Below are positions 22,240 to 36,682 of a DNA stretch of 64,000 bases, in pieces. The notes under the pieces were generated by a model. The model was given only the letters and a program-made list of their open reading frames with translations, was not told where the DNA came from and did not search any database. Within the stretch, counting starts at the first letter, position 1. Each line of letters begins with the position of its first letter. The position numbers and the translations under genes were made by a program. The DNA comes from Lentzea fradiae (lineage in GTDB: Bacteria > Actinomycetota > Actinomycetes > Mycobacteriales > Pseudonocardiaceae): contig NZ_FNCC01000005.1 in assembly GCF_900100955.1 (NCBI RefSeq), forward strand, positions 310,001-374,000. Direction: 5' to 3'.

Positions 22240-23226
22240 TCATACCCGCCGTTGCACCAGCTCATGCACCAGGTCGAGCTCGCCACGTCCGGCCAGCGCC
22301 GGTGTCACGTGCTCCACCAGCCGTTCCAGCAGCGCGGTCGCGGGCACCCGGCGTTCGTGCCACGGGTCGACGGCGGGGCCGTCCAGGCCGTACCGGGAGG
22401 CCGTCCAGACGGCCGCCGCGCACACGTCGTCACGCACCGGCGGCAGCTTGTCGCCCTGGCACGCCGTGTGCACCAGCGCGCGGCTCAGCGCCGCTTGCAG
22501 CACCGCGTCCTCGACCGTCTCGGCGGCGTCGGCGCAGCGGAACTCGACGGTCGGCAGCTTCGGCGAGAGCCGGGCCAGCCAGAACGTCTGGGCGGTGTCC
22601 ACGATCGTGCCGCACGCGACCAGCCTGGCCACGGCGGCGTCGTACTCCGCCGCGGTCGCGAACTCGGGCGCCACCCCGGAACCGGGGAAGCGGGACTGCT
22701 GGACCATCCGCCAGCTCGCGTAGCCGCGGTCCGGCGAGTTGGCCGACAGCGCGAGCAGCGTCGGCAGCCACGGCCGGACGTGGTTGAGGACGCGGACGCC
22801 CGTCTCCCGGTCCGGCACGCCGACGTGCACGTGGCACCCGCTGGCCTCGTAGTGCTCGACGACACCCGCGTAGGTGTCCAGCACCCGGCGGAACCGGGGG
22901 TTGGACCGGCTCACGATCGGCTGCTTCGACGGCTTCGGCGGGGTGCCGCGGGAGAGCAGCCCGAGCCCGAGCTCCGCGGCCGCCTCGGAGAGCGTCTTGC
23001 GGGCCAGCCGCAGCGCGTCGCCGAGAGCGGCGACGGACGTGCACGGCCCGGTCGCGGCCTCGACCTGCGTTCCCGCCAGCTCGGCGTGGAACTTCGTCAG
23101 GTCGGTGTCCGCCACGCGCGCCAGCACGGCGTCGGCGCGCACCGTGGTGCGGCCGGACGCCGTGTCGACGAGCAAGAATTCTTCTTCGACGCCGACCGTG
23201 TCAGCGCACTGCGGCACGCTTGCCAA
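22240..23226 (-). CDS. Carboxylate-amine ligase (glutamate-cysteine ligase 2 type)
   Basis: A 328-residue GCS2-family ligase with TVGVEEEFLLVD near the N-terminus, the HVHVGVPDRETG metal/substrate motif, NSPDRGYASWRMVQQSRFP and PTVEFRCADAAETVEDA. It resembles YbdK and EgtA-like enzymes that form gamma-glutamyl amides. In organisms with mycothiol its real amine substrate is unclear. The ATG at 23226 overlaps the DUF4383 gene by 26 bases; GTG at 23217 is an alternative. It is followed closely by the redox enzyme. Confidence 0.9.
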   Translation of the reverse strand: MASVPQCADTVGVEEEFLLVDTASGRTTVRADAVLARVADTDLTKFHAELAGTQVEAATGPCTSVAALGDALRLARKTLSEAAAELGLGLLSRGTPPKPSKQPIVSRSNPRFRRVLDTYAGVVEHYEASGCHVHVGVPDRETGVRVLNHVRPWLPTLLALSANSPDRGYASWRMVQQSRFPGSGVAPEFATAAEYDAAVARLVACGTIVDTAQTFWLARLSPKLPTVEFRCADAAETVEDAVLQAALSRALVHTACQGDKLPPVRDDVCAAAVWTASRYGLDGPAVDPWHERRVPATALLERLVEHVTPALAGRGELDLVHELVQRRV

Positions 23227-23726: not shown

Positions 23727-24128
23727 ATGGACGACGACAAGACCACCGAAGCGCTCGGCAAGCTCGGCAAGGCGCTCGAGACCGTGGAACGGGCCCGTGG
23801 CCACCTCTACTCGTTCCACCAGCTCACCGGCACCGCCGACTTCCTGCTGGACGACGCCATCGCGGCGTTGCGCGAGGCGGGCCACCACGAGCACGCCGAC
23901 CGCGTGCAGCGGGAGCTGCTCGGCCGCAACGTGCTGCCGGGCAAGTGGACCTTCGAGGTCGTGGAGCAGTTCGACGACACCTACTACGACGTCTTCCGCC
24001 AGGTCACCCGTGACGCCCGCGACCAGCTCGGTGGCGGCAGGCGGCACGAGCACGAGGCGCGGCTCAAGCGGGAACGTCAGCGGCTCAGCGCGGCGGCGTA
24101 CGCGGACAGGGACTCGCGGTCGGGCTGA
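23727..24128 (+). CDS. Small conserved actinobacterial protein
   Basis: A 133-residue, highly charged, helical protein (KALETVERARGHLYSFHQLTGTADFLLDDAIAALREAGH) of the type widespread in actinobacteria without an assigned role. It is divergent from DUF4383 and its last 52 bases overlap the 3' end of the convergent LAL regulator. No enzyme motif is visible. Confidence 0.8.
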   Translation: MDDDKTTEALGKLGKALETVERARGHLYSFHQLTGTADFLLDDAIAALREAGHHEHADRVQRELLGRNVLPGKWTFEVVEQFDDTYYDVFRQVTRDARDQLGGGRRHEHEARLKRERQRLSAAAYADRDSRSG

Positions 24129-26953
24129 CCGGTCTTCGCGATCAGCGAGGCGACGTGCTTCTCCACCGTGCGCGGGGAGATGTGCAGGCGGGTCCCGATG
24201 GCCTTGTTGCCCATCCGGTCGGCCAGCAGCACGAACACCTCGAACTCCCGGACCGTCACACCGTGCCCGCGCAGCTGCCGCGGCACCTGCTCCGTGCCCG
24301 TGCGGCGTTGCTGCACGGGCACACCGGCCTGCCGCAGCAGCCCGCGGCAGGCCGACGCCACGGCCGGGATGCCCGCCTCGTGGAAGTACTCCTCCGCGGT
24401 GCGCAGCCAGCCCACCGGGTCGCCCCAGCCCTCGGCCTCCGGCGCAACGAGCCGCAGGCCGAGGTGCCGCGCCAGCGGGTACGGTGCCGCGGCCTCCTGC
24501 GCGCTCCTGAACGCCTCCGCCGCCTCCTGGTAGCGGCCGTCCCTGCCGAGCAGCACAGCGTGCGCGAGGTCGGTGAACTGCCGGTTCCACCGCATCTCCG
24601 AGGCGGAGATCGCCGACAGCACGCGGTGTTCCTCCCAGCCGAAGCGGCCGTCGAGCACGCCGAGCAGCAGGCGGGTGCCGTGCGTGCCGGAGAGGTGGAA
24701 CGTGGTGGGGTTCTGCGACTCGAACGCCAGCGCCCGGTCGATCTCCTGCACGGCCAGCGGCTGGTTCTCCTCCAGCAGCGCGCAGAACGCGAGCGCGAGC
24801 CCGTAGCAGAGCGGGTACTCCTGCGTCCCGCTGCGCGCCACCGCCTCGAACCGCGCGAAGGCTTCCTCGGTGCCCGCCCGGTCGCCCCGGTGCGCGTGCA
24901 GCGTCGCCTTCACCATCAGCAGGTACCGGGTCAGCGCGTGGATCTTCAGCCGCTCCACGGCCTGCAGGCAGGTCTCGACCTGCTCGGCCGCCTGCTCGTA
25001 GCGGCCGGTGAGCACCAGCTGCAGCGAGAGGATGGCTTCCACGTTGTGCGCCACCGTGATCGCGCCCGCCTGGTACGCCTCGGCGTAGGTGCGGTCCAGC
25101 GCGGCGGTGGTGCCGTGCGCGAGCCATTCGTTGCCCGCCAGGCGGACCATCGCGTAGATGTGCTGGATCGGCATGTGGTGCTCGTGCGCCAGCGCGAGCG
25201 CCCTGCCGAAGCACGCGGTGGCCTCGTCGATGTCCTGCTCGCGCGCGATGATCCCGAGCAGCTGCCACGCCTCGCACGCCACGGAGGGCAGCCCGGCGCG
25301 GTCCGCGGACAGCGCGGCCTGCCTCGCGAGCCCCGCCGCCGACGCGATCCGGCCGGGGCTCGGGATGTTCAGCGTCAGGTAGGCGGAGATGACGTCCAGC
25401 TGCGCGGACAGCTCGTCCGGCACGTCCCGGCCGAGCAGCGTGCGGGCGTGCCGCACCTGCTCCACGCCCTCGGTGAACCGTCCGGCGAGATAGGCCACTT
25501 TGGACAGTCGGGTGTGGAGCATCGCGCGGCGAGGAGCGTCCAGCCCCGGCAGCAGAGCGGGGTCGAAGGCGAACGCGCGTTCGAACTCGCCGGTCTCGGC
25601 CAGCGCGGGCAGCAGCACGTCCAGCACGTCGGCCCGTTCGGCGACCTCGCCCGCCAGCAGGCTCTGCGCGCGGTCCAGCAGCGTCACGGCCGACCCGGCG
25701 GCACCACCGGCCAGCGCCCGCCTGCCCGCCTCCGCGAACAACCGGCCCGCCAGCGCCGGTGACCCGCCGTCGAGGCGCAGCTTCGCGACGAGCGGGCACC
25801 AGTCGCCGGGCAGGCCGGGGTGCAGCTCCTCGACGACGTCGGCGGTGCGCGACGACAGGTCCGCGCGTTCGGCGGGGGTGAGCTGGGCGAGCAGCGCGTC
25901 CGCGGTGAGGGGGTGCCGGAACGCGTACCAGTCCGGTGCGGGCTCGTCCGGTGTCACGAGCTGCGCGGCGACGCCGGCGTGCAGGTGGCTGAGCAGCCCT
26001 CGGTCGTCGGTGCCGGTCACCTTCTGCACCACCGAGAGCGGGAACCGGTGGCCCAGCACCGCCGCGATCGACAGCACCTCCCGCCCCTGCGGCCCCAGCC
26101 GGTCCGTGCGGTGCGCGACGCTGCGCACGAACGCCGCCGGCACGGGCAGCTTCAGCTCGCCCAGCACCTCCCAGCCGCGCGCGCCGGACACGAGCAGGCC
26201 GCCGCTCACCATGCCGTGCAGCAGTTCCTCGATGATGAACGGGTTGCCGGCGCTGTCCGTCCACAGCCGATCGGTCAGCTCCTGCGGCACCCCGGCGCTC
26301 TCCAGGCACGCGGCCGTCATCTGGTCGACCTCGTGCCGCGAGAGCCGGTGCAGCTCCAGCAGTCCGCCGGAACCCCGTTGCGCGGCCCGGTGGGCGAGCT
26401 CCAGCGCCGGTCCCGGCTCGGTGCGGATGGTGGCGAGCAGCAGGACCGGCTGGTCCTCCAGGTTGTCCACCAGGTAGTCGACGACCGCGAGCGTCTCGGC
26501 GTCGGCCTCGTGCAGGTCCTCCAGCACCAGCAGCACCGGCGTCTTGCGCCCGACGGACGCGAGCAGCCGCAGCACCGCCTCCGCGAGCACGACCATCGAC
26601 TCCTTGGTGGAGCGGTGGTCCTGCCAGTCGGGGATCAGCGTGCCCAGCACGGGCTTGTAGGGCCCGAGCTCCGCGTCGTCGGGAGGGTCGCCGCGGAACA
26701 GGCCGAGGAGGGCCTCCGCGAGCGGGCGGAACGGCACCATCGGGCCGATCGTCGTGCCGCGGCCCTTGAGCACCCGCAGGCCCTCGTCGTAGGCGTGACC
26801 GGCCGCGTACCTGGCGAGCCGGCTCTTGCCGATCCCCGCCTCGCCGGTCAGGAAGAGGGCGCCACCACGCCCCTGTCCGGTGCGTCCCAGGGCCCCGGTG
26901 AGTGCCGCGGTCTCTCGATCACGGCCGACCAGGTGAGGCGCTCGGGTCTGCAT
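24077..26953 (-). CDS. LAL-type LuxR family transcriptional regulator with AAA ATPase
   Basis: A 958-residue large ATP-binding LuxR regulator: N-terminal LVGRDRETAAL, Walker A GEAGIGKSRLA, Walker B-like LLVLEDLHEAD, a long TPR-like helical middle, and a C-terminal LuxR HTH (TVREFEVFVLLADRMGNKAIGTRLHISPRTVEKHV) ending in LSAYAAALSR. Such proteins are often pathway activators of specialised metabolism. It lies 176 bases downstream, on the same strand, of the lanthipeptide precursor, separated by a terminator, so it may regulate that locus. Confidence 0.93.
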   Translation of the reverse strand: MQTRAPHLVGRDRETAALTGALGRTGQGRGGALFLTGEAGIGKSRLARYAAGHAYDEGLRVLKGRGTTIGPMVPFRPLAEALLGLFRGDPPDDAELGPYKPVLGTLIPDWQDHRSTKESMVVLAEAVLRLLASVGRKTPVLLVLEDLHEADAETLAVVDYLVDNLEDQPVLLLATIRTEPGPALELAHRAAQRGSGGLLELHRLSRHEVDQMTAACLESAGVPQELTDRLWTDSAGNPFIIEELLHGMVSGGLLVSGARGWEVLGELKLPVPAAFVRSVAHRTDRLGPQGREVLSIAAVLGHRFPLSVVQKVTGTDDRGLLSHLHAGVAAQLVTPDEPAPDWYAFRHPLTADALLAQLTPAERADLSSRTADVVEELHPGLPGDWCPLVAKLRLDGGSPALAGRLFAEAGRRALAGGAAGSAVTLLDRAQSLLAGEVAERADVLDVLLPALAETGEFERAFAFDPALLPGLDAPRRAMLHTRLSKVAYLAGRFTEGVEQVRHARTLLGRDVPDELSAQLDVISAYLTLNIPSPGRIASAAGLARQAALSADRAGLPSVACEAWQLLGIIAREQDIDEATACFGRALALAHEHHMPIQHIYAMVRLAGNEWLAHGTTAALDRTYAEAYQAGAITVAHNVEAILSLQLVLTGRYEQAAEQVETCLQAVERLKIHALTRYLLMVKATLHAHRGDRAGTEEAFARFEAVARSGTQEYPLCYGLALAFCALLEENQPLAVQEIDRALAFESQNPTTFHLSGTHGTRLLLGVLDGRFGWEEHRVLSAISASEMRWNRQFTDLAHAVLLGRDGRYQEAAEAFRSAQEAAAPYPLARHLGLRLVAPEAEGWGDPVGWLRTAEEYFHEAGIPAVASACRGLLRQAGVPVQQRRTGTEQVPRQLRGHGVTVREFEVFVLLADRMGNKAIGTRLHISPRTVEKHVASLIAKTGQPDRESLSAYAAALSR

Positions 26954-27063
26954 GTGTGGACCCTAACTGTCTCGTTTGCTTCTCCCTATCGGCTGCCCAG
27001 GGGTATTCGACGTGAGAGTGCTGCGCTGTCACGGTTTCGGCACGGTCGTGCACGCAGAGCGAC

Positions 27064-27099
27064 GCCGCCCCCACGACCGGCGGTGGTCGTGGGGGCGGC
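27064..27099 (-). terminator. Terminator after the lanthipeptide genes
   Basis: GCCGCCCCCACGACC (27064-27078) pairs perfectly with GGTCGTGGGGGCGGC (27085-27099) around six bases. It lies 30 bases beyond the stop of the precursor-peptide gene and before the LAL regulator start. Confidence 0.85.
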
Positions 27100-27129: not shown

Positions 27130-27315
27130 TCAGTCGATGCTGACCGTCGTGTCCGACAGGGTGGGGACGATCGACGCGAACGCCGTCGCCGCCAGGGTCA
27201 GGCCCATCAGGGCGCGTGCCCTCGCTCCCGCGAAGACCGTCGGAGCGAGCTCCATCTCCCCGATCGCGTCCTCGGCCTCGGGCTGCGCGTCCGAGTGGTG
27301 CAGGGACTCGTTCAT
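27130..27315 (-). CDS. Candidate LanM precursor peptide lacking cysteine
   Basis: A 61-residue peptide whose ATG overlaps the LanM stop (ATGA), so it is translationally coupled. An acidic N-terminal half (DAQPEAEDAIGEMELAP) looks like a class II leader and TVFAG could be the cleavage region. The presumed core is hydrophobic then Ser/Thr-rich (AATAFASIVPTLSDTTVSID) with about eight Ser/Thr and no Cys anywhere. Thioether rings therefore cannot form within it. It may end as a dehydrated linear peptide, or cyclise with another nucleophile. The call rests on size, leader-like composition and coupling to LanM. Confidence 0.7.
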   Translation of the reverse strand: MNESLHHSDAQPEAEDAIGEMELAPTVFAGARARALMGLTLAATAFASIVPTLSDTTVSID

Positions 27316-29921
27316 CTGATGCACTCCTTGGTTCGGTGTGGGGGTTCGAGAGCGAGGACGGACGGCACCGGGAAGCCCTGGCGCAGCAGCCCGAGGCCGA
27401 TGCCGGACAACCCGGTGAGCAGGCCGGGCGACGGGACGCCGCCGGGGGTGGCGCACCGCGCGCCGTGTTCGTCCAGCGCTCCCAGCACTAGGGCGGTGCG
27501 CCGGGCGGCGGCACCGGGGTGGTGGGCGGAGAGGGCTTCGACGACGCCCAGCTCGCCGTGGCAGAGGCTCATGTCCCGCAACGGTTCGCGGGACGCGAGC
27601 AGCCCGGCCAGCCGGTCGTCGCCGCGGGCCAGTGCCACGCCGGCGAGGCCGGTGCACCAGCCGACGTCGGTCGGGTCGATCGCGTCGCTCTCCAGGAACG
27701 CCGTCGCCGCCACGTCCGCGGGCTCGTCGTGCAGGGCCTCCGCGTACCGCCGCAGCGCCCACCCGATGCCCGCGTTGCCCCGCGCGAAGCCGTGGGCGGC
27801 GGCGGCCGAGCCCCGCAGCACGGTCGCGTAGTGACGGGCCAGGTCGAGCGCCTCCGGCGTGCCGACGGACAGCATCGCGGCCAGCGAGCCGGCGACCCCG
27901 TCCACGACGCCCGTCGCCGTGTCCTCCCGCGGCATCACCGCGACGGCGTTCGCGAGCAGCGAGGGGTCGAGCTCCAGCAACGGGGTGAGCCGGGCGAGGC
28001 CGAGGCAGATGCCGCCCAGACCGTGCAGGCCGCCGCCCGCCAGCGCGGCCAGCGCGGGCTCCTCGGCGAACACCTCCAGCAGCGACGGCAACGGCCGCAA
28101 GGCGTTGCGCGCGAAGTCCACGTACCGCGCGGCACCGGTCAGCGCGCCCAGCTCCGCCAGGAACAGCGCGACGCCCGTGTAGCCGTTGGACAGACCGGCG
28201 CCGAGCGGCTGCACCGTCCAGTGCCGGTCGTCGACGAGCTCCAGGCCGATCCAGTTGACCCGGTCGCCGCCGGTGACGGCGTGCGCGAGCACCTGGTCGG
28301 CGATCCCGCACGCGGCGACGAGCAGCCGCGCGGGGTCGGGGTCGACGGCGGCGACGTGGCCCGGCAGCGCCGCGCCGGAGTGGTGCGAGACGGGCCGCGG
28401 CCGTGAGGCCAGCAGCGCGGTGACGACCCACTGCTGGTCGTGCCGGTCGACCTCGCTCATCGTCGTGATCTTGCGTTCGACGGCGTGCAGCCCGGGCTCC
28501 GGCAGCATCCCCGGCAGCCGGAGCCCGGACGCGGTCCACAGGTCTCGCGACCCCGGCCGGCACGTGAACAGCGGCACGTCGCCGCGCCACAGGTCGGCCA
28601 CCTCGAACGGCACGAGCCGGTCGAGCAGCGGGTCGTCCGCGACGAGGACGCCGAACGCCAGGTCGCGGTCGAGCGCGTCGGCCAGCACGGACGGGTGCGT
28701 CGACTCGTCGAGCAGCTTCGCGTACTGCCGGGTCGCCCTCGGCACGAACCGCACCTCGTCGTCGGCCGCCTCGCGGACGAGCCGCAGCAGCTCGTCGCGG
28801 TGCGCCACGATCGCGTCGTAGCCGGTGCGGAACCCCGCCAGCAGCGAGTCCTGGTAGTCGGCGGGCTCGGCGGGGACGCCGCCCAGCACCGGCCGGTTCC
28901 CGGCGCCCGTCGACTCCTTCGGACGCCGGACCAGGCGCATCCGGTCCGTTCCCGGGTCGGCCCAGTCGACGACGTCGAGCGGTGACGGCACCCCGTGGTC
29001 CCCGCCGACGCCGGACACGTCCGCGGCGCCGTTGTCGCCCAGCAGCACGTGGGGGAGCAGGGCCGTCCGGTGCACCGACCTGACCAGCGCCGCCGCGGCC
29101 GGGTCGCTGTCCTGGATGGACGTCGGGTGGAACAGCGTCTCGACGTCCACGAGCACCGGCTGGTCGCCGCACGCGATCAGGTTCTCGTAGTGCATGTCCG
29201 TGCCGTCGAGGGCGTAGAGCAGGGCGAGCAGCGCGCCCAGCCGCCGGTAGAACTCGGCGACCCCGGCGACGTCCGCGCACGGTTCGTGCTCGACGTGCTC
29301 CAGCCAGCCGTAGCCGTCCCTGACGAGCATCCGGGGCGTGCGGAAGTCGATGCCGGTCCGCGCGGAGAACCACCGCAGCTGGCCGGTGAACCGCGCGTGC
29401 AGCTCGACCGGCCGCGGCCGGTGCACGAGCCTGGCGCCCGACTCGAAGGTCAGCACCGCGACCGTCCGGCCCTGCTGGTGCGCGTCACCCAGGCCGGTCC
29501 GCACGGACACCAGCTCGCCGGGGTCGCGGCCCTGGAAGACGGTGGCGACAACGTCCTCGCGGTCGCGTGCCAGCCGCTCGGTCAGCTCGCGGTGCGCGGC
29601 GACGGACTGCTCGCACGCCTGGGCGAGCAGCCGGGCGAGCACCGGGTAGCGCCGGAAGAGGCCGGACAGGTCGAGGGTGCGGGTGAACTCGACGAACCGC
29701 TCCTCGCTCGTCGGGCTCACCAGGGTCCCGCGCGCCCGGTGCAGCTCCAGCACCAGCGTCCGCGCCGCGATGGCGACGAGCCGCCGTCCGAGCTGCTCCG
29801 CGAACATCGCGTCGAGGGGCGGCGCGATCTCGGTGCGCGCGGCGTCGACGAGCGGCCGGAGTGCGTGCGCGAAGGCCGCTCTCCAGCTCTCACCTGTGCT
29901 CGTCTCGGGCGCTGAGGTCAC
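27312..29921 (-). CDS. lanM: Class II lanthipeptide synthetase (LanM)
   Basis: An 869-residue bifunctional LanM. The dehydratase part has VHRPRP, the kinase-like DMHYEN (about residue 241) with its downstream VDVETLF, and PRATRQYAKLLDESTHP. The LanC-like cyclase part has repeated G-G motifs (NGYTGVALFLAEL, HGLGGICLGLARL), the HGFARGNAG loop, and zinc ligands WCTG (near 755) and CHGE (near 785). All key positions look intact except a conservative Lys-to-Arg in the YKPR-like motif. Start GTG 29921 is preferred; an ATG lies at 29957. It is divergent from an XRE regulator; no transporter or protease gene is adjacent. Confidence 0.93.
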   Translation of the reverse strand: MTSAPETSTGESWRAAFAHALRPLVDAARTEIAPPLDAMFAEQLGRRLVAIAARTLVLELHRARGTLVSPTSEERFVEFTRTLDLSGLFRRYPVLARLLAQACEQSVAAHRELTERLARDREDVVATVFQGRDPGELVSVRTGLGDAHQQGRTVAVLTFESGARLVHRPRPVELHARFTGQLRWFSARTGIDFRTPRMLVRDGYGWLEHVEHEPCADVAGVAEFYRRLGALLALLYALDGTDMHYENLIACGDQPVLVDVETLFHPTSIQDSDPAAAALVRSVHRTALLPHVLLGDNGAADVSGVGGDHGVPSPLDVVDWADPGTDRMRLVRRPKESTGAGNRPVLGGVPAEPADYQDSLLAGFRTGYDAIVAHRDELLRLVREAADDEVRFVPRATRQYAKLLDESTHPSVLADALDRDLAFGVLVADDPLLDRLVPFEVADLWRGDVPLFTCRPGSRDLWTASGLRLPGMLPEPGLHAVERKITTMSEVDRHDQQWVVTALLASRPRPVSHHSGAALPGHVAAVDPDPARLLVAACGIADQVLAHAVTGGDRVNWIGLELVDDRHWTVQPLGAGLSNGYTGVALFLAELGALTGAARYVDFARNALRPLPSLLEVFAEEPALAALAGGGLHGLGGICLGLARLTPLLELDPSLLANAVAVMPREDTATGVVDGVAGSLAAMLSVGTPEALDLARHYATVLRGSAAAAHGFARGNAGIGWALRRYAEALHDEPADVAATAFLESDAIDPTDVGWCTGLAGVALARGDDRLAGLLASREPLRDMSLCHGELGVVEALSAHHPGAAARRTALVLGALDEHGARCATPGGVPSPGLLTGLSGIGLGLLRQGFPVPSVLALEPPHRTKECIR

Positions 29922-29954
29922 GGCAAGAACCTGACACGGGTCCGCGCACCCGCA

Positions 29955-30009
29955 CATGGGGGCGAATCCCCCAGATTTGCGCGCGGGGCGAATATGGGGG
30001 TCCGCCACC
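29955..30009. promoter_or_regulatory. Symmetric and repeated sites in the lanM/regulator divergent promoter
   Basis: The 140-base divergent region contains a direct repeat GGGGCGAAT (29959-29967 and 29985-29993, 26 bases apart), GGGGG-CGAAT-CCCCC, and an ATGGGGG...CCACCCAT repeat. Spacing of about two and a half helical turns suggests a regulator site; the XRE protein encoded at 30062 is the obvious candidate to bind it. Confidence 0.35.
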
Positions 30010-30061
30010 CATGTTCCGCTCGAGCCCGCGCCCCGACACTCAGTGCCGAGGAGGAACGGCG

Positions 30062-31120
30062 ATGAGGGACTTCGGCGAACTACTGCGCACGCACCGGATC
30101 CGCGCGGGACTGACCCAGCAGCAGCTGGCGGACTTCGCGATGGTGAGCGTCCGGGCGATCCGCGACCTGGAGTGCGGGCGCACCCGCACGCCGCGGGCCG
30201 AGACGGTGCGCCTGCTCGCGGAGGGCCTGCGGCTGGACGAGACCAGCCGCGCGGACCTGGCGAAGGCCGGCGGGCGGACGGCGGCGCGAGCGGGTGCCGC
30301 ACCCCCGGCACCGGCGGGGGCGATCGTGGGCAGGGAGGTCGAGACGGCGGCGCTGGTGGCGCTGCTGTCGGGCTGCGCGGCGGGTGGGCAGCGGCGGCTG
30401 GTCACCATCACCGGCCTGAGCGGCGTCGGCAAGACCCGCCTGGCCCTGGAGGCCGCGGGCGAGCTGCACTTCCGGCACGGCTGGTCGGTGCTGTGGCACC
30501 CGGCCTCGCCGCCGTCGGCCGACGACGACCAGGACACCGTCCTCGTCACCGACCGGTGCCCGGAGCCGCGCCTGCTCGCCGAGCACCCCCGGCTGCGCGT
30601 CCTGGTGACCGCGCTGGCCCCGACCGGCCTGCCCGGCGAGCACGTGTTCCCGCTGTCGCCGCTGTCCGACGAGGCGGCGGTGCGGCTGCTCCTCACGCAC
30701 GTGCACCGGGTGCGGCCGGGGTTCCGCGCGGAGCCCGCGAACCAGGCGGCGCTGACCGGCCTGGTCAAGGAGCTGGACGGCCTGCCGTCGGCGCTGGAGT
30801 TCGCGGCGGGCTGGTTCATGGTGTACTCGCCGCAGCACCTGCTGGAACGCCTGCGCGCCAACCCGGTGGACCCCACCTCGGCCCACCTGCGCGACGCGCT
30901 GCGCCGTTCACTGTCCACTTTGGACGAGGACGGGCGGCGCAGGCTCGTGGACGTGATCGAGAACAGGGCGCACGGCGACCTGCGCGATCTGGTCGTCCGC
31001 GGCCTCGTGCGGCGGGCCGGGATGCGCTACGAGGCGCTCAACCTGGTGCGCGCGGCGGTGCTCGAACCCCAGCCGGACCGCGACTTCACCGGAGGCGTCG
31101 CCCTGTCCTGGCCCTGTTAG
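30062..31120 (+). CDS. XRE-family regulator with STAND-type ATPase domain
   Basis: A 352-residue protein with an N-terminal XRE HTH (about 5-60, LTQQQLADFAMVSVRAIRDLE) and a P-loop GLSGVGKT (118-125) with NB-ARC-like continuation (FPLSPLSDEAAVRLLL, ELDGLPSALEFAAGW). Relatives usually carry a long TPR tail; this one stops soon after the ATPase arm, so it is a short form. GAGGA precedes the ATG. Its position divergent from lanM suggests pathway control. Confidence 0.85.
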   Translation: MRDFGELLRTHRIRAGLTQQQLADFAMVSVRAIRDLECGRTRTPRAETVRLLAEGLRLDETSRADLAKAGGRTAARAGAAPPAPAGAIVGREVETAALVALLSGCAAGGQRRLVTITGLSGVGKTRLALEAAGELHFRHGWSVLWHPASPPSADDDQDTVLVTDRCPEPRLLAEHPRLRVLVTALAPTGLPGEHVFPLSPLSDEAAVRLLLTHVHRVRPGFRAEPANQAALTGLVKELDGLPSALEFAAGWFMVYSPQHLLERLRANPVDPTSAHLRDALRRSLSTLDEDGRRRLVDVIENRAHGDLRDLVVRGLVRRAGMRYEALNLVRAAVLEPQPDRDFTGGVALSWPC

Positions 31121-34804: not shown

Positions 34805-36682
34805 ATGACCACAACAGCTCACCCGAACGTCGCAAACTCCGTCGGACTCGCCGAGTTCCTGGCCACCGCGGGCACGCTCACCCTGGCGCAGCGCAAGCTC
34901 ATCGTCGACCAGGCGCTCGTCCTGCTGGAGCAGAACTACGCGCATCTGCCTCTGAAGGTCGCCATGCACGCGGTGAACCCGGTGCAACGCCTCAGAGTCC
35001 TGAGAGCCAGACTCGAACGGCAGACCGACGCCACGGCCGAGCCCGAGTGGCAGTTCCACCGCGAACTGTCGAGCACCTTCCACTCGGTGCGCGACCTGCA
35101 CACGAACTACCTGCTGCCCGCGCCGTTCGCGGGCAAGATCGCCTTCCTGCCGTTCCAGCTGGAGCGGTGCTTCGCCGCGGACGGCACCGAGCAGTACCTC
35201 GTCACCCGCGTGGTCGAAGGCTTCGACGGCCTGTCCGTCGGCACGGAGGTGACGCACTGGAACGGCACGCCGGTCGCGCGGGCCGTCGCGTTGAACGGCG
35301 CGGTCTTCGCGGGCAGCAACACCGCCGCGAACCTCGCCCGCGGCCTGGAGTCGCTCACGTTGCGCCCCTTGGTGATCCAGCTCCCGCCGGACGAGGACTG
35401 GGTCGTCGTCACCTACCGCGGCGAGGACGGCACGCGCGAGGACGTCCGCGTCGAGTGGCAGGTCACCGAGAACCTGCCGCCGATGACCGACGTCGACTCG
35501 CTGTCCCCGGCCGCGGCGGCGCAGGGCGTCGACCTCGACTCCGACGAGAAGGCGCGCGCCAAGAAGCTGTTGCACGCGCCCAAGGTCGTGCGCGCGGAGG
35601 CCGCGGGCGGCGCCGTCGCGATGGGGACGCAGGACGTCCCGACGACGATGCCCGGCGTGTTCCGCGCGCGTCCGGTCGTGACGCCGTCCGGCACGTTCGG
35701 GCACCTGCGGATCTTCACGTTCAGCGTCGACGACCCGGACGCGTTCCTCGCCGAGTTCGTGCGGCTCGCGGCCCTGCTGCCGCAGAACGGGCTCATCGTC
35801 GACGTGCGCGACAACGGGGGCGGCCACATCTTCGCCTCGGAGTTCCTGCTGCAGACCATGACCCCGCGCCGCGTCGACCCGGAACCCGTGCAGTTCCTCA
35901 GCACCCCGCTGAACCTGCGGATCTGCCGCCGCCACGCGGACGACCCGACCGGGCAGATCGACCTGGGCCCGTGGTTCCCCTCGCTCGACTCGTCGACCGA
36001 GACGGGACAGGCGTTCTCCTGCTCGCACACCATCACGCCGGTCGAGGGCGCGAACGCCGTGGGCCAGACCTACCACGGCCCGGTCGTGCTCGTGACGGAC
36101 GCGCGCTGCTACTCCGCGACCGACATCTTCGCGGCGGGCTGGGCCGACCACGAGCTGGGCCCGATCCTCGGCGTGGACGACAACACCGGCGCGGGCGGCG
36201 CGAACGTGTGGACGCACGGCCTGTTGATGACGCTGCTGAAGATCCCGGCGCCCGGCGACACCGAGTCGCCGTACAAGCCGTTGCCCAACAAGGCGAACAT
36301 GCGCGTGTCGATCCGCCGCACGTTGCGCGTCGGCAAGCTCGCCGGCACGCCCGTCGAGGACCTGGGCGTGCGGCCGACGCACCAGCACAAGCTGACGCGC
36401 GCGGACCTGTTGCAGGGCAACGTGGACCTGCTCGCACGGGCGGGCGAGCTGCTGGCGGAGCAGCCGGTGCGAAGGCTGGGCGTGGCGGTCGACGGCACGA
36501 CCGTCTCACTGGACACCGTGAACCTCGACCGGGTGGACGTCTACGTCGACGGCCGCCCCATGACGTCCCTGGACGTGGCCGACGGCGTGCACACCGTGCC
36601 GCTGACCACGACCGGCGAGGAAGTGCGCGTCGACGGTTTCGCGCAAGGACGACTGGTGGCCGCGCGCAAGGTCACCGGTTGA
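34805..36682 (+). CDS. S41 family (tail-specific-like) peptidase
   Basis: A 625-residue protein with an N-terminal helical region, FHRELSSTFHSVRDLHTNY (typical S41 entry), a PDZ-like portion, VDVRDNGGGHIFASEFLLQ and the nucleophile region VTDARCYSATDIFAAGW (Ser near 436), followed by GVDDNTGAGGANV. No signal peptide is visible, so it is probably cytoplasmic, unlike many CtpA-like peptidases. A strong AAGGAGG precedes the ATG. It ends in a shared terminator with the convergent secreted-protein gene. Confidence 0.9.
   Translation: MTTTAHPNVANSVGLAEFLATAGTLTLAQRKLIVDQALVLLEQNYAHLPLKVAMHAVNPVQRLRVLRARLERQTDATAEPEWQFHRELSSTFHSVRDLHTNYLLPAPFAGKIAFLPFQLERCFAADGTEQYLVTRVVEGFDGLSVGTEVTHWNGTPVARAVALNGAVFAGSNTAANLARGLESLTLRPLVIQLPPDEDWVVVTYRGEDGTREDVRVEWQVTENLPPMTDVDSLSPAAAAQGVDLDSDEKARAKKLLHAPKVVRAEAAGGAVAMGTQDVPTTMPGVFRARPVVTPSGTFGHLRIFTFSVDDPDAFLAEFVRLAALLPQNGLIVDVRDNGGGHIFASEFLLQTMTPRRVDPEPVQFLSTPLNLRICRRHADDPTGQIDLGPWFPSLDSSTETGQAFSCSHTITPVEGANAVGQTYHGPVVLVTDARCYSATDIFAAGWADHELGPILGVDDNTGAGGANVWTHGLLMTLLKIPAPGDTESPYKPLPNKANMRVSIRRTLRVGKLAGTPVEDLGVRPTHQHKLTRADLLQGNVDLLARAGELLAEQPVRRLGVAVDGTTVSLDTVNLDRVDVYVDGRPMTSLDVADGVHTVPLTTTGEEVRVDGFAQGRLVAARKVTG

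Follow-up and report, generated by a model that had tools for sequence, protein, structure and literature searches.

The window analysed here is a stretch of 64,000 nucleotides from Lentzea fradiae (contig NZ_FNCC01000005.1, positions 310,001 to 374,000). Its minus strand carries, in this order, a lanM gene coding for a class II lanthipeptide synthetase-like protein, a small gene for a precursor-like peptide devoid of Cys, and a gene for a LAL-type LuxR regulator. These look like a three-gene module, in which LanM would convert the Cys-free precursor into a linear dehydropeptide under autoregulation by the LAL protein, a reading to which we assign a probability of about 0.5. The leader of the peptide (GEMEL...GARARAL) would dock on LanM, and the kinase/lyase domain of the enzyme would then dehydrate the C-terminal TTVS motif to Dhb-Dhb-Val-Dha (Dhb, dehydrobutyrine; Dha, dehydroalanine). 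No lanthionine would form, because the peptide has no Cys and an Arg stands in place of the cyclase catalytic acid, and the product would remain linear. The LAL protein would bind an operator and activate lanM, its likely input being the modified peptide or a processing product of it.

A Conserved Gene Order

The lanM gene (27312..29921, minus strand) has a GTG start and codes for 869 residues. Its stop codon overlaps the ATG start of the peptide gene (27130..27315, minus strand), and the ATGA-coupled peptide of 61 residues reported in the first-pass annotation, with no Cys and eight Ser/Thr in its C-terminal part (residues 40-59), is confirmed. The LAL gene (24077..26953, minus strand; 958 residues) comes third, after a gap of 176 bp. 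Its product matches Pfam AAA_16 at residues 8-172 and GerE, the C-terminal LuxR helix-turn-helix (HTH), at residues 900-946, a domain content that places it among the LAL proteins.

The comparison covers 81 loci, namely the window and 80 named loci with their flanks, spread over about 20 labelled actinobacterial groups. Since the 80 are the best of 200 relatives, close relatives are over-represented in the set. By sequence, 20 of the 80 belong to Lentzea, one of them under a Nocardia title. The records titled Nocardia sp. NRRL S-836 (L051) and Rhodococcus rhodnii NRRL B-16535 (L076) carry LanM loci of the Lentzea and the Kibdelosporangium type, respectively, and these titles may be wrong. More broadly, a LanM match was found in 55 of the 149 related genomes searched, with 78-84% identity for orthologues in the same genus (78-83% for the named Lentzea orthologues), 47-62% for matches in other genera of the family, and weaker matches below.

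In all 81 loci a LAL gene follows LanM on the same strand; it was seen with the gene caller in 77 and by tblastn in the other four (L071, L074, L076, L078). The locus is thus not the minimal two-gene unit described by the first-pass annotation, which had overlooked this regulator as well as the predicted operator and the Arg714 that occupies the cyclase His position. When neighbour families were called with a simple gene caller within about 10 kb of LanM, LanM and LAL were seen in 19 of the 20 labelled groups and no other family in more than 6. Twenty other LanM loci served as controls, seven of them sister LanMs and 13 more distant ones; a LAL gene is present at five of the sisters and at none of the 13. 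The LanM and LAL distance matrices are tightly correlated over 77 loci (r = 0.958; Mantel, 0 of 999), a correlation that shared descent alone would also give.

A peptide with a related leader, detected by a leader-based profile, immediately follows LanM in 80/81 loci, with weak matches for L106 (E 0.0075) and L071 (E 0.001). L102, the sole locus in which no related peptide was found, shows only a partial LanM match. Related LanM genes are accompanied by the small open reading frame (ORF), whose absence the first-pass annotation had named as an argument against its own proposal. It had also suggested checking whether the peptide that follows LanM homologues is always Cys-free; the last 22 residues lack Cys in 60 of the 80 loci. 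Over the whole part between the leader motif and the C-terminus, Cys is lacking in 58 of the 80 and confined to the leader part in two. None of the 21 Lentzea loci, of which the window is one, has a Cys in its peptide. At least two Ser/Thr occur in the last 22 residues of every peptide scored (85/85), and 38 loci show a TVS-like core, 36 of them without core Cys.

To follow the distribution of Cys, a tree of 91 LanMs was computed with FastTree after removal of eight close Lentzea rows and of L102, whose match is partial; it has long control branches, and its support values are FastTree's own only. The LanMs of this gene order, together with two sisters that have no LAL gene (L115, L119), form a single clade with a support of 100. 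This clade includes seven rows at its base (support 83) and a 12-row subclade, where a peptide was found for 10 rows (L100, L106, L110, L112, L114, L116-118, L120, L131), each time with a TTCC or STCC core. It also includes a Cys-poor subclade of 60 rows, of which 46 have no Cys, two a leader Cys, two are mixed and 10 have a core Cys. The Cys residues that do occur in this Cys-poor clade are scattered, as in Kribbella, where CSTWPTI stands beside FGSTWPTI, or in one Saccharothrix, where Cys is the last residue. Because of this scatter we read Cys as dispensable and Ser/Thr as the feature that is kept. The sister LanMs L116, L117, L118 and L120, which have STCC peptides as well as a LAL gene, show a LanKC-like stretch nearby, with about 30% identity over the N-terminal and kinase part.

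The LanM Enzyme and Its Cyclase Domain

The window LanM belongs to the curated family TIGR03897, with 636 bits for a cut-off of 304 over model positions 32-930 of 932, and further matches DUF4135 (418 bits) and LANC_like (56 bits). The dehydratase residues and the three zinc ligands mentioned by the first-pass annotation are indeed in place. The former are found as D242-x-H244-xx-N247 and D259-x-E261, each of the five being present in 68/68 members of the Cys-poor clade. The zinc ligands are C787-H788 (27558..27563, minus strand) and C756 (27654-27656), and are also nearly invariant in the clade (C756 67/68, C787 67/68, H788 68/68). The LanM of Streptomyces katrae (L105) has His in place of both zinc Cys (WHTG and LHHG).

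The cyclase active site looks different. Arg714 (27780..27782, minus strand) takes the place of the active-site His usual in LanM, as judged by alignment with LicM2, which has GFSHG where the window LanM has GFARG, and with the control LanMs. In the Cys-poor clade (n = 68) this position is Arg in 56, His in nine and another residue in three, whereas His is found in 11/12 control LanMs. Read from the motif, position 714 is that of NisC His212. In passages of PMC9934072, the His of this type is described as the acid that protonates the enolate, and its mutation as harmful to NisC, SpaC, LctM, ProcM, LanCL1 and LanCL2; the excerpted text of PMC10604976 terms the same His functionally essential. 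The enolate-stabilising position beside the first zinc Cys is also unusual. It is Thr757 in the window, and Ser in 42, Thr in 11, Gly in eight, Ala in six and His in one of the 68, as against His or Asn in 10/13 control rows, among which L131 belongs to the TTCC group. Loss of a catalytic Asp, at the NisC Asp141-like position (GLSNG), was considered too and dropped; by our alignment the 13 control rows do not agree at this place (D7 G4 S2), and LicM2 has Gly.

The genome of the window (G000, 8.5 Mb) codes for a second LanM, L115 (contig 17, about 130310-132268), which is about 39% identical to that of the window. The GFxHG stretch is absent from its cyclase, and neither a LAL match nor a recognised precursor lies alongside.

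Since the zinc ligands are so well kept in a clade whose peptides are mostly Cys-free, the zinc site might serve to couple the dehydrated residues to a thiol from outside, be it mycothiol, free cysteine or another Cys peptide. There is a precedent, the LanCL proteins adding glutathione according to PMC9934072. We consider this unlikely, if worth keeping in mind, since such an addition would meet an Arg at the position of the enolate-protonating acid, and Ser or Thr (53/68) at the enolate-stabilising one, where the controls mostly have His or Asn.

A second alternative is that LanM acts in regulation as a pseudo-enzyme or a plain peptide kinase, leaving the peptide undehydrated. The invariable coupling to a regulator fits with this, as does the regulatory LanM-like protein CA_C0082, an effector of agr signalling in Clostridium acetobutylicum (PMC10301443, excerpted text). 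According to the same excerpt, CA_C0082 is short, has neither the zinc nor the dehydratase residues, and comes from a genome with no other lanthipeptide genes. What this LanM relative shares with the window LanM is its link to regulation; it differs in all these respects, both residue sets being near-invariant here and a precursor being present. As the Thr/Ser motif of the peptide is moreover under purifying selection, a role of this kind seems rather improbable.

The Peptide and Its Selective Constraints

The peptide, MNESLHHSDAQPEAEDAIGEMELAPTVFAGARARALMGLTLAATAFASIVPTLSDTTVSID, ends with LSDTTVSID. It gave no match in Pfam or NCBIfam, nor among 72,556 plasmid records. Its leader motif GEMEL (residues 19-23; 27247..27261, minus strand) recurs as a [NHD]PAGE[MI]-like motif in many groups beyond Lentzea. 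The core motif TTVS (residues 56-59; 27139..27150, minus strand), which holds the putative dehydration sites, is well conserved in Lentzea, V58 and S59 being found in 21/21 and T56 and T57 each in 19/21 sequences.

The ratio of nonsynonymous to synonymous polymorphism (pN/pS) over the 21 Lentzea coding sequences is 0.40 overall and very uneven along the peptide. It amounts to 1.01 for residues 1-17, 0.04 for IGEMEL, 0.17 for AGARARALMGLTL, 0.54 for the hydrophobic spacer, 0.15 for DTTVS and 1.38 for the last two residues. These values indicate purifying selection on the leader and the core motif, and freedom to vary for the last two residues. No GG motif was seen by eye, and AxA-like signal-peptidase positions, which by eye are there, are not conserved within Lentzea. 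To the eye only, the Arg-rich and hydrophobic stretch ahead of the core resembles a secretion signal. A 51-residue ORF with one Cys, located between the peptide and LAL genes (26919-27074, minus strand), was found in the window only among the downstream ORFs listed. Next to a distant LanM (L127, G056 contig 1), a 72-residue upstream ORF bears an NPAGAVEL motif and is likewise without Cys.

A peptide profile (A2, E up to 0.01) was run on 89 related genomes. Of the 24 genomes of the genus, 23 gave exactly one match each, located next to LanM in every case, while the remaining genome (G023) has neither the peptide nor the orthologous LanM. For each genome of the genus, scoring was limited to 67 or fewer of the roughly 155-223 first-look candidates, so that a poorly matching peptide elsewhere could be missed. 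Within these bounds, no second precursor with this leader, a finding that the first-pass annotation would have counted against its proposal, was detected in the 23 genomes. A second precursor elsewhere in the window's own genome was rejected likewise, the peptide search there giving otherwise only weak matches (E 0.19 or worse); this rejection, like the profile result of one peptide per genome, covers leader-related peptides.

These data bear on the two outcomes offered by the first-pass annotation, a dehydrated product without lanthionine or a LanM working on a distant precursor. The former is now preferred, because the Cys-free peptide proves to be a conserved partner of LanM. For the latter, in which LanM would chiefly serve a Cys-containing precursor elsewhere and the linked peptide would be an accessory, prochlorosin-type LanMs acting on distant precursors provide a precedent (PMC7268733, excerpted text), and our search addressed only peptides related by their leader. 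Given the single such peptide per genome and its position beside LanM in nearly all loci, we regard a distant substrate as very unlikely. A non-thioether ring, for example by lysinoalanine-like addition of an amine to Dha/Dhb, is hardly credible, since the Lys that ends some Lentzea peptides (5/21) falls within the unconstrained last two residues and no Lys or His is conserved in the core.

The Predicted Operator and the LAL Regulator

The upstream sequences of LanM have in common the motif AATNTGGG-N9-CCCATG. The window contains two exact copies, where 0.02 matches would be expected with one mismatch allowed. The first predicted operator, AATCTGGGGGATTCGCCCCCATG (29955..29977, minus strand), lies 33 bp before the lanM start, and the second, AATATGGGGGTCCGCCACCCATG (29991..30013, plus strand), faces a divergent XRE-type regulator gene. 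Among the 80 loci with enough upstream DNA (L095 being left out), an exact site is present in the 600 bp ahead of LanM in 66, namely 21/21 in Lentzea and 45/59 in the others. No site was found before the 20 control LanMs. The 1.70 Mb that the compared loci cover contain only two further exact sites, which both lie some 1.1 kb ahead of the LanM of a Catellatospora.

On a larger scale, the whole G000 genome contains three sites with one mismatch allowed, all of them exact. In 109 related genomes, 53 exact sites were found in 30 genomes, 46 at LanM loci, four at a LanKC cluster and three elsewhere, the reversed pattern giving no exact match in any related genome listed. The presence of the operator at LanM loci is partly built in, because the motif was derived from these loci; its rarity elsewhere is not. 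Extra exact sites away from LanM are also seen in the corresponding regions L142 and L143 of two genomes of the genus (G019 contig 1, G022 contig 112), where the gene calls are ambiguous.

MalT and other LALs combine an NTPase, a long middle part and a LuxR HTH in one protein, and a small ligand activates MalT. We know of no LAL protein that senses a modified peptide. In the DNA-binding domain of the LAL proteins, operator-bearing loci outside Lentzea have Lys (40) or Arg (2) at the Lys917 position in 42 loci and His924 in 41/42, versus Lys in 3/14 and His in 7/14 at these positions in operator-free loci. That Lys917 and His924 track the presence of the operator is suggestive only.

The third G000 site (C32:192158) is unlinked to LanM and lies in a LanKC cluster (contig 32; L138 4176-15390), between a pair of M16-peptidase genes and a regulator gene. 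The cluster codes for a radical SAM protein, LanKC, a major facilitator superfamily transporter, a FAD-NAD(P)-binding protein, the two M16 peptidases and this regulator (L138 8243-9211), which has a LuxR-like HTH by eye and no Pfam match. LanKC matches NF038151 with 740 bits (cut-off 575) and is found at 88-100% identity in four of the 24 genomes of the genus (G000, G005, G009, G010); the operator site is present at the LanKC cluster in exactly these four. An ORF of 21-23 residues ending with AFGWD and preceded by a strong ribosome-binding site lies before LanKC in the three readable loci, its G000 version having 23 residues (MFHKASTNGIGEDDDVIGAFGWD). A pair of M16B peptidases is reported to mature class III lanthipeptides of Bacillus and Paenibacillus (PMC8960859, excerpted text). 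In some Lentzea, the LAL protein might also activate this distant LanKC/radical-SAM/M16-peptidase cluster.

Evidence Against the Proposed Linear, LAL-Controlled Product

Several observations weigh against the proposed module. Cys is present in the last 22 residues in 18/80 loci, and two more are mixed, with two peptides each, one of which has a core Cys. The near-perfect retention of the zinc ligands would be superfluous for a dead cyclase. Nor does an Arg near the His212 place prove that the cyclase is dead, since the zinc-free class III cyclase ThurKC has one there, Arg610, salt-bridged to Asp667, and still closes rings (PMC10604976, excerpted text). Over the whole set, position 714 is R47 H8 D2 T1 for peptides without Cys and Arg in six, His in five and other residues in 12 for those with core Cys. 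Several Cys-bearing members thus have no His, 8/58 Cys-free ones retain it, and its loss is spread across the entire LAL-linked clade. Once relatedness is allowed for, no link between His loss and Cys loss was found; the test compared eight independent pairs (median p 1) and its power is low, the informative pairs being too few either to reach significance or to exclude an association. His loss does not track Cys loss over the whole set, and the altered cyclase is a feature of the LAL-linked clade and not a consequence of Cys loss alone. As for the operator, it is absent in 14/80 loci, mostly of the TTCC and basal groups, and the reversed control pattern, with one mismatch allowed, gives two matches in G000. 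The protein that binds it could also be the LanKC-cluster regulator instead of the LAL protein.

Other Neighbouring Genes

The divergent gene beyond the second operator codes for an XRE-type regulator of 352 residues with an NTPase domain (30062..31120, plus strand; HTH_31, AAA_16). The locus has indeed a divergent regulator of its own, as first annotated, but this gene was found in Lentzea only (16/20 loci, versus 0/60 others, in a distance test). One of the four Lentzea loci missed by this test, L036, does show the XRE regulator in the neighbour listing.

No transporter or protease family is conserved across groups near LanM, within the same 10 kb and with the same simple gene caller. The earlier statement that none lies nearby is right in that sense, but at 4.9 kb from the start of LanM there is a Peptidase_S41 gene (34805-36682, plus strand), whose family the gene caller detects at 13 loci, all Lentzea. 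On the other side, a GCS2 (glutamate-cysteine ligase family 2) gene (22240-23226, minus strand) lies about 4 kb beyond the peptide gene.

Relation to Known Systems and Significance

The window LanM has in common with the class II enzymes LicM2 and CylM its domain order, its TIGR03897 match, its dehydratase residues and its zinc ligands. It differs from them by Arg714 at the His position, a Cys-free partner, a LAL regulator and an operator of its own. The proposed product would be similar to the linaridins in being linear and bearing dehydroamino acids. Linaridins are linear ribosomally synthesised and post-translationally modified peptides, rich in dehydroamino acids, and are made by enzymes other than LanM.

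That class II lanthipeptides need Cys, as the first-pass annotation stated, is true by definition, and the window peptide has no core Cys for (methyl)lanthionine; Cys-free precursors associated with LanM are nevertheless in print. The excerpted text of PMC7268733 mentions them for some cyanotins and among the LanM precursors of LanM+LanKC clusters. The cyanotins have highly diverse cores, only some of which are without Cys, whereas here the core motif is conserved and the absence of Cys extends to all Lentzea loci and most of the clade. The same text mentions no LAL or operator alongside these Cys-free precursors, which may belong to the same family as the present peptides. Cys-free LanM-associated ORFs were set aside there as not being lanthipeptides, and ORFs without Cys in the estimated core were discarded, a procedure by which the present family would be missed. 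Part of it may already have been described in an earlier survey of Actinobacteria. Among the literature matches listed, no title or abstract opening describes the LanM/Cys-free peptide/LAL module or its operator.

The module defines a set of full-length LanMs with a Cys-free partner, in which the usual cyclase acid is lost and zinc kept, and which would thus allow a direct test of the roles of the LanC domain besides ring closure. The conserved operator and the LAL partner make a regulatory role genetically testable. Beyond Lentzea, it is possible, if still tentative, that the module serves signalling widely among actinobacteria, with a dehydratase-only LanM turning the Cys-free precursor into a linear dehydropeptide ligand for a STAND-type LAL that drives its own operon and, in some species, an unlinked class III cluster. 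If true, the peptide would be a signal of a new kind, and the module would show a way in which a lanthipeptide enzyme may have become a pheromone maker.

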